Origin: Alcanivorax sp. DSM 26293
GTDB lineage: Bacteria; Pseudomonadota; Gammaproteobacteria; Pseudomonadales; Alcanivoracaceae
Direction: 5' to 3'
DNA length: 64,000 bases
Assembly: GCF_900107995.1 (NCBI RefSeq)
Contig: NZ_FNUM01000008.1
Coordinates: 62,001-126,000 of the forward strand
Below are positions 21,110 through 23,304 of this stretch, piece by piece. Positions within the stretch are counted from its first letter, which is position 1, and each line of letters opens with the position of its first letter. The notes beneath the pieces were generated by a model. It had not been told where the DNA came from. It made no database searches and saw only the letters and a list, made by a program, of their open reading frames with translations. The position numbers were made by a program, and so were the translations under genes.

Positions 21110-21730
21110 ATGAGAAAACTGCAATTCGCCATGGTGGCCCTGTTCGCTGTGCTGCTCATGGCCTGTGCCTCCGGCTACCACGATACCCGTGTGGTCAACA
21201 CCCAGACCGGCGTAGAAAAAGACCCACAGGGTCCCTACCAGTCATTGGTGGTGGGGGTCCTCGTTGAGCACGAACTGCGTGGTCACCTGGAAAACGCCAT
21301 CGTTGCCAGGTTTGCCGAGCAAGGCATCAAGGCCACCGCCGCCCATACGGTCTTTGGTGACAAAGGCATCGAAGGCAAAAGCCGCGACTATCTGGCAGAA
21401 CGCATGCAAGAAAACGGCTTCGACAGCGCCCTGGCGATCCACCTGGAAGAACAGCGCAGCGAAACCCTTGAGGTCAAAGGCGACCCGGGCGCGGCCGTCC
21501 CGATCGCCGGCACCATGACCATGCGTCCCCAAGTGTTCAGCGATGACTTTTTCGTCAATGAGGACATCTATGTGGTTCGGCTGGACCTGTGGGACGTGGC
21601 GCAACAAGCCATCATCTGGCAAGGCAACACCGTCAGCTTTAACACCGGCGGCTTCAAGGGCCTGGAAAAAGGGGCCGGCCACTTTGCCCAGGTCATCACC
21701 AACGCCATCGGCAAGGCCGATATCTTCTGA
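21110..21730 (+). CDS. Putative lipoprotein of unknown function
   Basis: 206-aa protein with a lipoprotein signal (LFAVLLMAC, Cys about residue 19). I do not recognise the mature domain: it has alternating beta/alpha segments (VGVLVEHELRGHLENAIVARFAEQGIKA near the start) and a late segment VVRLDLWDVAQQAIIWQGNTV. These faintly recall lipoproteins that assist outer-membrane or secretion assembly. It lies 62 bases after the DUF1302 gene, on the same strand and before a strong terminator, so the two probably form an operon. Confidence 0.75.
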   Translation: MRKLQFAMVALFAVLLMACASGYHDTRVVNTQTGVEKDPQGPYQSLVVGVLVEHELRGHLENAIVARFAEQGIKATAAHTVFGDKGIEGKSRDYLAERMQENGFDSALAIHLEEQRSETLEVKGDPGAAVPIAGTMTMRPQVFSDDFFVNEDIYVVRLDLWDVAQQAIIWQGNTVSFNTGGFKGLEKGAGHFAQVITNAIGKADIF

Positions 21731-21763
21731 TTCTGTTTTCTCCTTGATTGTCTCCACCTTCCT

Positions 21764-21788
21764 TGCCCACTTCGGTGGGCATTTTTTT
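21764..21788 (+). terminator. Rho-independent terminator
   Basis: TGCCCAC-TTCG-GTGGGCA followed by seven T; ends the DUF1302-lipoprotein operon. Confidence 0.95.
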
Positions 21789-21856
21789 GCCCTGTCACGC
21801 CCCTGTCATCCCGGCCCGGCATATTGACCTCCTATCACGGAGAGAGGCTCGCCCTC

Positions 21857-21885
21857 TTGCTTCTGGCAGGCGTCATCGCTAGGCT
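21857..21885 (+). promoter_or_regulatory. Candidate sigma70 promoter for leader peptide and DAHP synthase
   Basis: TTGCTT and TAGGCT with a 17-base spacer, ending 28 bases before the leader ATG. The -10 is weak; assignment rests on spacing and position. Confidence 0.4.
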
Positions 21886-21913
21886 TGAAAGCTGAACTCA
21901 ACGAGATTTCATC

Positions 21914-22024
21914 ATGAACGCAGCCCGCCACAATCACAGCATGCCTGCAGACCGCAAAACGGTCGGCACCGTTGTGCCCGCTGCCTTCTATTACGGGTAT
22001 TGGTTTAGCCGCTCGCGCGCCTGA
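21914..22024 (+). CDS. Aromatic amino acid leader peptide
   Basis: 36-codon frame ending in a run of aromatic codons: PAAFYYGYWFSRSRA, with Phe, Tyr, Tyr, Tyr, Trp and Phe within seven codons (about 21986-22006). Its stop codon is inside the first stem of an attenuator-like structure. The first gene downstream with a known function is DAHP synthase, which commits carbon to Phe, Tyr and Trp. Known attenuation logic predicts ribosome stalling here when charged aromatic tRNAs are scarce. The ribosome site is weak (ACGAGAT), and a second in-frame ATG at 21941 could be used. Confidence 0.8.
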   Translation: MNAARHNHSMPADRKTVGTVVPAAFYYGYWFSRSRA

Positions 22025-22102
22025 CTTATACCCAGGCGCGCCCGCTACGGGACGCCTGCCGAAACACGAAAACCCCGGTCGGTATCCCGCCCGGGGTTTT
22101 TT
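22015..22102 (+). promoter_or_regulatory. Transcription attenuator with terminator hairpin
   Basis: Stem 1:2 is a perfect 9-bp pairing, GCGCGCCTG (22015-22023) with CAGGCGCGC (22033-22041), overlapping the leader stop. An alternative 2:3 pairing uses CAGGCG (22033-22038) with CGCCTG (22053-22058). The terminator pairs AAAACCCCGG (22069-22078) with CCGGGGTTTTTT (22091-22102). A ribosome held at the aromatic codons would cover strand 1 and free strand 2. How 2:3 would block the terminator is not fully clear by eye. Confidence 0.75.
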
Positions 22103-22138
22103 ATTGCCCAGACAAGCGCACGACAGAGGACAAACAGC

Positions 22139-22234
22139 ATGTATCGATATAGCCAGCACTTTAAAGCATCGCGATTTAGCCAGTGGCAGCGCCCGCTCCA
22201 GCGAACACTACGATCGAATCACGCGCGACGATAA
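22139..22234 (+). CDS. Small basic, aromatic-containing reading frame before DAHP synthase
   Basis: 31-aa frame with a good ribosome site (AGAGGA, 8 bases before ATG). It contains Tyr2, Tyr4, Phe8, Phe13 and Trp16 in its first half and many Arg in the second. It lies between the attenuator terminator and the DAHP synthase start, with no second terminator behind it. It may be a second translated leader, a translational coupler or a true small protein. I recognise no family. Confidence 0.5.
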   Translation: MYRYSQHFKASRFSQWQRPLQRTLRSNHARR

Positions 22235-22260
22235 TGCGCACAGAACGTTAAGGAATGACC

Positions 22261-23304
22261 ATGCAACAGACACAGAGCCACATCGCCAGCCCCGCCGACC
22301 CCCGTTCGCGCCGCAGCGTGCCACTGCCCTCCCCCAGCGCAATGCGCGAGCGCCTGCCGGTGGACGCCCAGCTGGCGGCACAAATCCAGGCCCATCGACA
22401 GACCGTACGCGATATTCTCAACGGCGAAGACGACCGCCTTTTAGTGATCACCGGTCCCTGCTCGCTCCATGACCCGAAATCCGCCCTGGAATACGGCCAT
22501 CGCCTCAGCGAACTGTCCCGTCAGCTGGACGACAGGATATTCCTGGTAATGCGTGCCTACGTGGAGAAACCCCGCACCACGGTGGGCTGGAAAGGTCTGC
22601 TTTACGATCCGCACCTGGACGGTAGCAACGACATCGGCACCGGTCTGAACGTGTCTCGCCATCTTTTGCTGGACCTGGCTCGTCTGGGTCTGCCCCTGGC
22701 CACGGAACTGTTGCATCCCATGGCCGCCGACTACCTGGGCGACCTGCTCAGCTGGGCGGCCATTGGCGCCCGCACCACCGAATCCCAGATCCACCGGGAG
22801 ATGGTCAGCGGTCTGCCCATGCCCGTGGGTTTCAAGAACGGTACTGACGGCAGCATCGATGTGGCCAGTGACGCCATGGGCGCCGCCGAGCATCCCCACA
22901 CGCACCTGGGCATCGACCACAACGGTCACAGTGCGTTGCTGCAAACCGCCGGCAACCTGGATACGCACCTGGTGCTTCGCGGTGGGCATCATGGCCCCAA
23001 TTACGATGCAGAAAATATTCGCAGTGCCGTCAATGCCTTGCAGGCGAAAGGCCGCAACCCACGACTGATCATCGACTGCAGCCACGCCAACAGTGGCAAA
23101 GACCCGCTCAAACAGCCGGAAGTACTGCAGGATCTGCTTGCACAACGCCGCAACGGGCAAAAGCATATCGCCGGAATCATGCTGGAAAGTCACCTGCAGG
23201 ATGGCAAACAGCCGCTGAAAAAGCCCCTCCAGTACGGCCTGTCCATCACCGATGGTTGCCTGGGCTGGGACAGGACAGCGCAGTTACTCTGCGGCATCGA
23301 TTAG
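22261..23304 (+). CDS. aroF/G/H-like: 3-deoxy-7-phosphoheptulonate synthase (DAHP synthase, class I)
   Basis: 347-aa enzyme condensing phosphoenolpyruvate and erythrose 4-phosphate, the first shikimate-pathway step. Visible: LVITGPCSLHDPKSALEYG (about residues 60-78), VMRAYVEKPRTTVGWKGLLYDP, ATELLHPMAADYLGDLLSWAAIGARTTESQ, GFKNGTDG, LRGGHHGPNY, and IIDCSHANSGKD with a metal-ligand region. ATG 22261 fits the AAGGA site; ATG 22255 would be too close to it. The isozyme (Phe-, Tyr- or Trp-sensitive) cannot be told by eye. Expression is probably set by the upstream attenuator. Confidence 0.93.
   Translation: MQQTQSHIASPADPRSRRSVPLPSPSAMRERLPVDAQLAAQIQAHRQTVRDILNGEDDRLLVITGPCSLHDPKSALEYGHRLSELSRQLDDRIFLVMRAYVEKPRTTVGWKGLLYDPHLDGSNDIGTGLNVSRHLLLDLARLGLPLATELLHPMAADYLGDLLSWAAIGARTTESQIHREMVSGLPMPVGFKNGTDGSIDVASDAMGAAEHPHTHLGIDHNGHSALLQTAGNLDTHLVLRGGHHGPNYDAENIRSAVNALQAKGRNPRLIIDCSHANSGKDPLKQPEVLQDLLAQRRNGQKHIAGIMLESHLQDGKQPLKKPLQYGLSITDGCLGWDRTAQLLCGID

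Follow-up and report, generated by a model that had tools for sequence, protein, structure and literature searches.

The Pseudomonas RNA P15 and an aromatic leader peptide in Alcanivorax: a predicted attenuator of DAHP synthase that probably senses phenylalanine, tyrosine and tryptophan

Leader attenuators of aromatic biosynthesis

In the leader-peptide attenuators of E. coli trp and pheA a stalled ribosome picks between mutually exclusive RNA hairpins. Leader attenuators of DAHP synthase genes are already known or predicted in other bacteria. According to the accessible parts of the reports, the aroR leader located before aroF in C. glutamicum contains Phe-Tyr-Phe and mediates attenuation by Phe, not by Tyr (PMC4046766, PMC11802643). 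The uORFC-13-1 motif of Acholeplasma, likewise found before aroF, is presented in the available excerpt as a predicted uORF, with at least one Phe codon named, together with a terminator; the same excerpt refers to a hypothesised attenuator of E. coli aroF (PMC8632094). For Shewanella, the accessible part of a survey records RNA motifs ahead of aroF (“attenuator sensing tyr-tRNA”) and aroH (PMC2659441), and excerpts of two further papers describe putative attenuators before aroAI-alpha-Y > tyrA in Vibrio (PMC1173090) and the control of DAHP synthase genes by the DNA-binding regulators TyrR and TrpR (PMC5343134).

We analyzed a stretch of 64,000 nucleotides from Alcanivorax sp. DSM 26293 (the window), in which a DAHP synthase gene is preceded by a short ORF with a run of aromatic codons. 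In contrast to E. coli trp and pheA, this leader has three amino acids in one run, and a stalled ribosome would favor stem 1:2, while a separate helix, 3:4, would act as antiterminator. It shares with aroR-aroF an aromatic leader peptide in front of a DAHP synthase gene, but aroR, which we liken to it by its published description, belongs to an actinobacterium and features Phe-Tyr-Phe only. The combination of uORF and terminator before the gene is common to uORFC-13-1, a motif that, unlike the Alcanivorax leader, is described from Acholeplasma and environmental sequences, as a prediction only. With the aroF and aroH leaders of E. coli and Shewanella it has the hypothesised attenuation in common (for aroF by Tyr-tRNA), and a leader with all three aromatic amino acids is not described for these genes in the excerpts available (PMC2659441, PMC8632094).

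We found no paper linking P15, or a DAHP synthase gene of Pseudomonas or Alcanivorax, to a leader peptide in a search for the most part confined to literature outside subscription. The main text of a P. aeruginosa 3'-end mapping paper contains neither PA2843 and PA1750 nor DAHP or tryptophan, and one attenuator survey and one structured-RNA survey mention neither DAHP nor P15. In the original prediction, an attenuator that senses Phe, Tyr and Trp jointly would amount to a distinct, integrated control. Our analysis supports the attenuator itself, but aromatic-codon attenuators of DAHP synthase genes had already been reported or predicted elsewhere. As far as we searched, the new points are a proteobacterial family that combines all three aromatic amino acids in one block and is identical with P15, a proposed relay of four helices, and a second leader ORF. 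We consider it very likely that the DAHP synthase gene is under ribosome-mediated transcription attenuation by translation of the leader.

The leader ORF and its conservation upstream of DAHP synthase

The features of the locus are listed in Table 1. The 36-codon frame with FYYGYWF near its end, on which the original prediction was built, was recovered as described. It terminates with TGA at 22022–22024 and five sense codons lie between FYYGYWF and the stop, so that the locus has the short leader ORF rich in end-product codons that is typical of ribosome-mediated attenuators. No other ORF of 8–60 codons on either strand of the window has six or more aromatic residues in seven including F, Y and W, and 60 simulated sequences of 64 kb, matched in dinucleotide frequencies, produced none; a run of this type is rare by chance. 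A terminator-like site (21764–21781) is located 3' of the gene upstream of the leader, which therefore probably begins its own unit. The promoter candidate is weak: its blocks are partly conserved among 11 aligned upstream regions of the Alcanivorax type, and a consensus promoter scan missed it.

Table 1. Features of the DAHP synthase leader region in the window
Feature	Coordinates	Strand	Remarks
Possible promoter, TTGCTT (21857–21862), 17 nt, TAGGCT (21880–21885)	21857–21885	+	Inferred, partial conservation
Leader ORF, 36 codons, MNAARHNHSMPADRKTVGTVVPAAFYYGYWFSRSRA	21914–22024	+	Aromatic sORF at 109/109 orthologous loci
Match to Rfam RF00627	21982–22097	+	56.8 bits, E 1e-10, below gathering score 70
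Putative regulatory codon run F-Y-Y-G-Y-W-F	21986–22006	+	F, Y and W all at codons -3 to +3 in 89/89 aligned leaders
H1 hairpin, GGGTAT...ATACCC, expected without ribosome	21995–22033	+	-15.3 kcal/mol alone
Stem 1:2, 22015–22023 / 22033–22041, perfect 9 bp	22015–22041	+	-17.6 kcal/mol alone; holds part of the stop codon
Stem 2:3, CAGGCG..CCCG / CGGG.CGCCTG, 22033–22044 / 22048–22058	22033–22058	+	-14.6 kcal/mol alone
Predicted antiterminator 3:4, 22048–22052, 22054–22056, 22058–22061 with 22076–22079, 22081–22083, 22085–22089	22048–22089	+	-16.9 kcal/mol
Intrinsic terminator, 22069–22082 / 22087–22100, 13 bp, T run to 22102	22069–22102	+	-20.7 kcal/mol alone
Shine-Dalgarno-like AGAGGA of second leader ORF	22125–22130	+	
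Second conserved leader ORF, MYRYSQHFKASRFSQWQRPLQRTLRSNHARR	22139–22234	+	Between terminator and DAHP synthase gene
Class I DAHP synthase gene	22255–23304	+	NCBIfam aroFGH 454.3 bits, cut-off 173.2

The downstream gene had been taken for a class I DAHP synthase, and the NCBIfam aroFGH model agrees. Its start is probably ATG 22261 rather than 22255, since TAAGGA at 22249 gives the appropriate spacing. The nearest named records are from Alcanivorax, therefore the enterobacterial frame of the original prediction, which compared the locus with TyrR/TrpR repression, does not apply. TyrR and TrpR act on the same pathway step as the proposed leader, but as DNA-binding regulators, and neither TrpR (PF01371) nor TyrR (TIGR04381) was found in the genome of the window or in 12 other genomes of the genus, while both models detected the regulators in an E. 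coli control. One relative carries a DAHP synthase match with a single in-frame TGA (L006, G006:C1:1188379-1189422).

For comparison we collected 111 loci with 700 nt upstream of each DAHP synthase gene and separated two of them (L002, L031; about 51% identical) as paralogues. An ORF with at least five aromatic residues in seven was present before the orthologous gene at all of the remaining 109 loci, seven of which are duplicate contigs. None of 20 paralogues from the same genome set (50–53% identical) had such an ORF when 651 nt upstream of each were tested in this way. The core codon motif together with a G run and a T run at the position of the terminator was found at 108 of the 109 loci, corresponding to 89 distinct leaders (alignment A1); the remaining locus (L030) shows a variant aromatic run in place of the core motif. 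A conserved intrinsic terminator between leader ORF and gene, as expected for ribosome-mediated attenuators, is thus part of the family, and the recurrence of both run and terminator in relatives, proposed earlier as a check, was borne out.

Numbering codons from the glycine of the run, all 89 leaders contain F, Y and W within codons -3 to +3, with six aromatic residues in 73 and five in 16. A1 rows were chosen by the codon motif G-[YF]-W-[FY], so that G and W are fixed by selection. At positions -3 to -1 F and Y interchange, and the only nearly fixed aromatic residues are Y+1, W+2 (by the row motif) and F+3, each occurring once. The leader ORF ends three codons early, at codon +6, in eight of the 89 leaders, all retaining the core. 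These are of P. putida type (L047, L061, L066, L076, L077, L104, L105, L109) and have an altered segment 1 as well.

The block GGGTATTGGTTTAGC is nearly invariant even at synonymous sites (GGG 88/89, TAT 85/89, TTT 86/89, AGC 87/89), a degree of conservation that, judged from the alignment, exceeds the needs of codon sensing. It would suit a riboswitch or a protein-bound leader in which this block binds the ligand or protein and the peptide is secondary. We regard such an element as very unlikely, for the block reads in frame as Gly-Tyr-Trp-Phe-Ser, part of it is paired in the consensus hairpin of P15, the flanking aromatic codons vary and more distant leaders retain the aromatic run in another order (FFWWFGYGFYFS, FWYWGYWF, FSYWYWF).

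In whole-genome searches with a covariance model built from A1, all 27 distinct matches of at least 40 bits were located at DAHP synthase loci with an aromatic-rich sORF upstream. At E≤0.01 some match was obtained in 50 of 244 genomes of the order and 26 of 369 genomes of the class, many of them weak. Fetched matches of up to 35.3 bits mostly lacked a DAHP synthase gene; those of the class search without one in the fetched locus (L144–L164, L166, L167) were discarded as noise, and two of the order search (L137, L140) were also taken as noise. One match (L165) is antisense to another at the same place (L142).

Alternative helices and the position of the ribosome

The fold of the whole leader surpassed all of 200 dinucleotide shuffles (z -3.55). 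The 9-bp stem with the stop codon, the alternative stem and the rho-independent hairpin had all been predicted correctly. An exchange between the two stems does not by itself account for read-through, which needs an additional antiterminator helix that the original prediction did not name.

We propose that a single block of seven codons monitors how much charged Phe-, Tyr- and Trp-tRNA is available. When all three amino acids are ample, the ribosome would reach the stop codon, and since this codon lies within segment 1, stem 1:2 would be blocked. Stem 2:3 would then form first, segment 3 would be held and the terminator would close, giving a terminated leader RNA of about 210 nt if the candidate promoter is the right one. 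If any one of the amino acids is short, the ribosome would stall within FYYGYWF, block H1 and leave segment 1 free; stem 1:2 would capture segment 2 and release segment 3, which, by pairing with the loop and the upper part of the 5' arm of the terminator, would form antiterminator 3:4 and permit read-through. In the absence of translation H1 and 2:3 would favor termination in Pseudomonas-type leaders only. We hold this exact relay of four helices, as modeled here, to be fairly probable.

To simulate the ribosome, the transcript was cut 13 (or 11) nt beyond the first base of the codon in the A site, everything 5' of the cut was removed, and the remaining RNA was folded at the length reached just before the 3' arm of the terminator appears, for 26 Alcanivorax-type and 63 Pseudomonas-type leaders. 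With the ribosome at codons -3 to +3, the mean probabilities in Alcanivorax-type leaders were 0.97–1.00 for stem 1:2 and 0.89–0.92 for the antiterminator; at codon +5 they were 0.00 and 0.28, and stem 2:3 reached 0.67. Pseudomonas-type leaders gave 0.73–0.75 and 0.65–0.68 at codons -3 to +3, and 0.00, 0.19 and 0.57, respectively, at codon +5. The averaged simulations follow the four-helix relay, with read-through best at the seven aromatic codons and 2:3 dominating from +4/+5. Codons upstream of -4 showed only a moderate contrast with the run in Alcanivorax-type averages, and with the 11-nt footprint the downstream edge of the read-through plateau shifted by about one codon. When the stop codon occupied the A site, the antiterminator rose again with the 13-nt footprint (0.56 and 0.45) and less so with the 11-nt one (0.44 and 0.16). 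Without a ribosome, stem 1:2 (0.69) and the antiterminator (0.63) were favored over H1 (0.12) in the Alcanivorax type, and the Pseudomonas type gave H1 0.62, 2:3 0.36 and antiterminator 0.31. When Tyr +1 occupied the A site, the minimum-energy folds had core pairs of 1:2 in 66–77 of the 89 leaders and core pairs of the antiterminator in 64–75, except for the pairs 81x128 (46) and 77x132 (23).

The leader of the window itself behaves differently. Its antiterminator is stronger than stem 2:3 (Table 1) and has a probability of at least 0.90 at equilibrium for every ribosome position. The last base of stem 2:3 (22058) is transcribed 31 nt ahead of that of the antiterminator. As there is no switch at equilibrium, switching in this leader must depend on the order of folding.

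The run might in principle serve mainly a single amino acid, the other aromatic codons being passengers of a ribosome-mediated attenuator. Such a sensor would resemble C. glutamicum aroR, whose Phe-Tyr-Phe is reported, in the part of the paper available, to act on Phe limitation only (PMC11802643), and it would agree with the near fixation of just the three residues from +1 to +3. All seven codons lie inside the simulated read-through window, and no leader of A1 has lost F, Y or W. We therefore view a single-amino-acid sensor as possible but rather unlikely; codons and geometry suggest that the leader probably senses Phe, Tyr and Trp together.

Pairing of the terminator arms in general, plotted against ribosome position, proved too blunt a measure, with a dip past the run in the groups and none in the window leader. 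It was replaced by helix-specific probabilities and used for the shuffle control. Here read-through dropped past the run by a mean of 0.27 for 20 real leaders, compared to 0.04 for 240 shuffles; 16 of the 20 drop, L001 (the window), L007, L019 and L105 lack a clear drop, and 38% of single shuffles exceed a drop of 0.05. Mutually exclusive structures switched by ribosome position, a hallmark of ribosome-mediated attenuation, are seen in the simulations as an average over 89 leaders and above shuffles; they are absent at equilibrium in the window leader and footprint-dependent at the stop.

We also looked for the compensatory changes that the original prediction had named as a check. The terminator pair set is paired in 90.6% of cells of A1 compared to at most 55.4% in slid controls, and the antiterminator set in 83.1% compared to at most 45.5%; one antiterminator pair (81x128) is unpaired in 41 of the 89 rows. 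Double changes occur at seven terminator pairs, a number reached by 1 of 500 shuffles, and at four antiterminator pairs, reached by 95 of 500, in a control that ignores relatedness. No double change was found in stem 1:2 among the 89 leaders. The RNAalifold consensus of A1 contains a local hairpin at columns 19–29 (outside the relay model), part of 2:3 and the terminator, and its covariation term is -0.54; H1, stem 1:2 and the antiterminator are absent from it. As A1 is too conserved for strong covariation and the shuffles ignore relatedness, the structural claim rests mainly on overlap, consistency and geometry.

Correspondence to the Pseudomonas RNA P15

A search of Rfam, also suggested at the outset, returned RF00627 for the window, a match that spans the full model (1–119) over the same hairpins but stays below the gathering score. 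H1 is the first hairpin of the P15 consensus. In a permissive Rfam scan RF00627 was matched in all seven loci submitted (113.1, 103.7, 93.2, 91.0, 70.6, 68.0 and 56.8 bits): L056, L046, L067, L041 and L019 reach the gathering score of 70, L087 has 68 and the window (L001) 56.8. The leader of the window falls short of the gathering score of the family; it lies at the homologous position and aligns with members above the cut-off. Of 12 genomes searched with RF00627, ten had a match at E≤0.01 and eight a match above the cut-off. These eight all belong to one family (f21), and in each the sole match above the cut-off is the DAHP synthase leader. Another genome of this Pseudomonas family (G258) has no orthologous DAHP synthase and no P15 match, the paralogue alone being found. 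Matches to RF02278 and RF02837 in the window region were rejected as far below their cut-offs. The Rfam Trp leader and Phe leader families had no match in the window at gathering scores, nor at E≤0.5 in 21700–22400.

RF00627 is listed as a gene, “Pseudomonas sRNA P15”, and the part of the entry available names neither a leader peptide nor a target. In the accessible part of a 2008 paper P15 is counted among the sRNAs detected by Livny et al. (PMC2375449). Both records would agree with P15 as a trans-acting small RNA, as it was first named, with the terminator as its 3' end and the ORF incidental or part of a dual function. We judge this to be very unlikely: P15 occupies a fixed site before one gene, with the aromatic sORF at every one of the 109 loci, aromatic codons are exchanged for aromatic codons, the ORF stop overlaps the competing stems, and a 2008 survey, in the part available, had already put forward P15 as a possible cis element (a riboswitch). 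In a dRNA-seq study of Alcanivorax dieselolei 11 of 549 sRNAs were assigned to Rfam families, and P15 is not named in the accessible text (PMC9788540). From sequence comparison we conclude that P15 most plausibly is the DAHP synthase leader, the named loci examined coming from species other than P. aeruginosa, and that it controls this gene by attenuation, probably in response to Phe, Tyr and Trp.

A second leader ORF and the meaning of the family

Between terminator and DAHP synthase gene we noticed a second conserved ORF. Its Pseudomonas form reads MNYATYYRYD..AWRFS.LRSGQPAASDRS..GG..CRTPQ; shorter Y-rich forms (..YRYDWRFS..RTP/L) occur in Stutzerimonas and some Pseudomonas, a related form in Halotalea and Y-rich WRFS..RS...ATSDR forms at the loci of another family (f37). 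It was not found at eight loci with the gene close behind the terminator (L021–L025, L027–L029). The core block is carried by 73 of the 89 leaders; for an alignment of this ORF (A2) 40 representatives were chosen and 36 of them aligned (L041, L080, L091 and L100 omitted). Part of the invariance of the block in A2 is built in, since the rows had been selected for carrying it. Codon evidence was therefore taken from a degenerate-pattern search, which gave W-R-F-S/T ORFs in 64 of the 89 leaders; the window, with S-R-F-S, is not among them. In the core, Arg is CGA and Phe is TTT in 64/64, and the upstream Tyr codons vary.

No Pfam or NCBIfam family matched the peptides of either leader ORF (five peptides). 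Folding with the ribosome at varying positions on the second ORF revealed no switch point for access to the DAHP synthase start: in the long form, for which 40 of 43 loci were scanned, mean access was 0.50 (free) and rose to at most 0.60; the short form (21 loci) started at 0.39 and reached at most 0.58. In many relatives the two leader ORFs have TTTAGC in common, placed shortly behind a Trp codon (TGGTTTAGC, TGGCGATTTAGC; in the window 22001–22009 and the second-ORF core). By eye, the stop of the second ORF in L056:2216-2434 and other Pseudomonas loci adjoins a G+C-rich hairpin ending at the Shine-Dalgarno sequence of DAHP synthase, and the stem sequence differs between Pseudomonas and Stutzerimonas types.

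We tentatively suggest that two tandem leader ORFs run DAHP synthase in Pseudomonadales and relatives, a joint reading for which our confidence is low. The first ORF (P15) would be an OR gate, at which lack of Phe, Tyr or Trp stalls the ribosome and lifts termination; the second, Tyr-rich ORF with its core TGG CGA TTT would adjust how well the same mRNA is translated or how stable it is; and in Alcanivorax the two ORFs together would take the place of TyrR and TrpR.

If the attenuator reading is true, a function could be assigned to an Rfam family that is entered there only as a small RNA, and a single leader peptide would monitor three end products together. Such a leader would also indicate how organisms without detected TrpR or TyrR may control entry into the shikimate pathway. 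Pseudomonas putida is used for making aromatic compounds, so that such an attenuator in front of one of its DAHP synthase genes would make a practical target.
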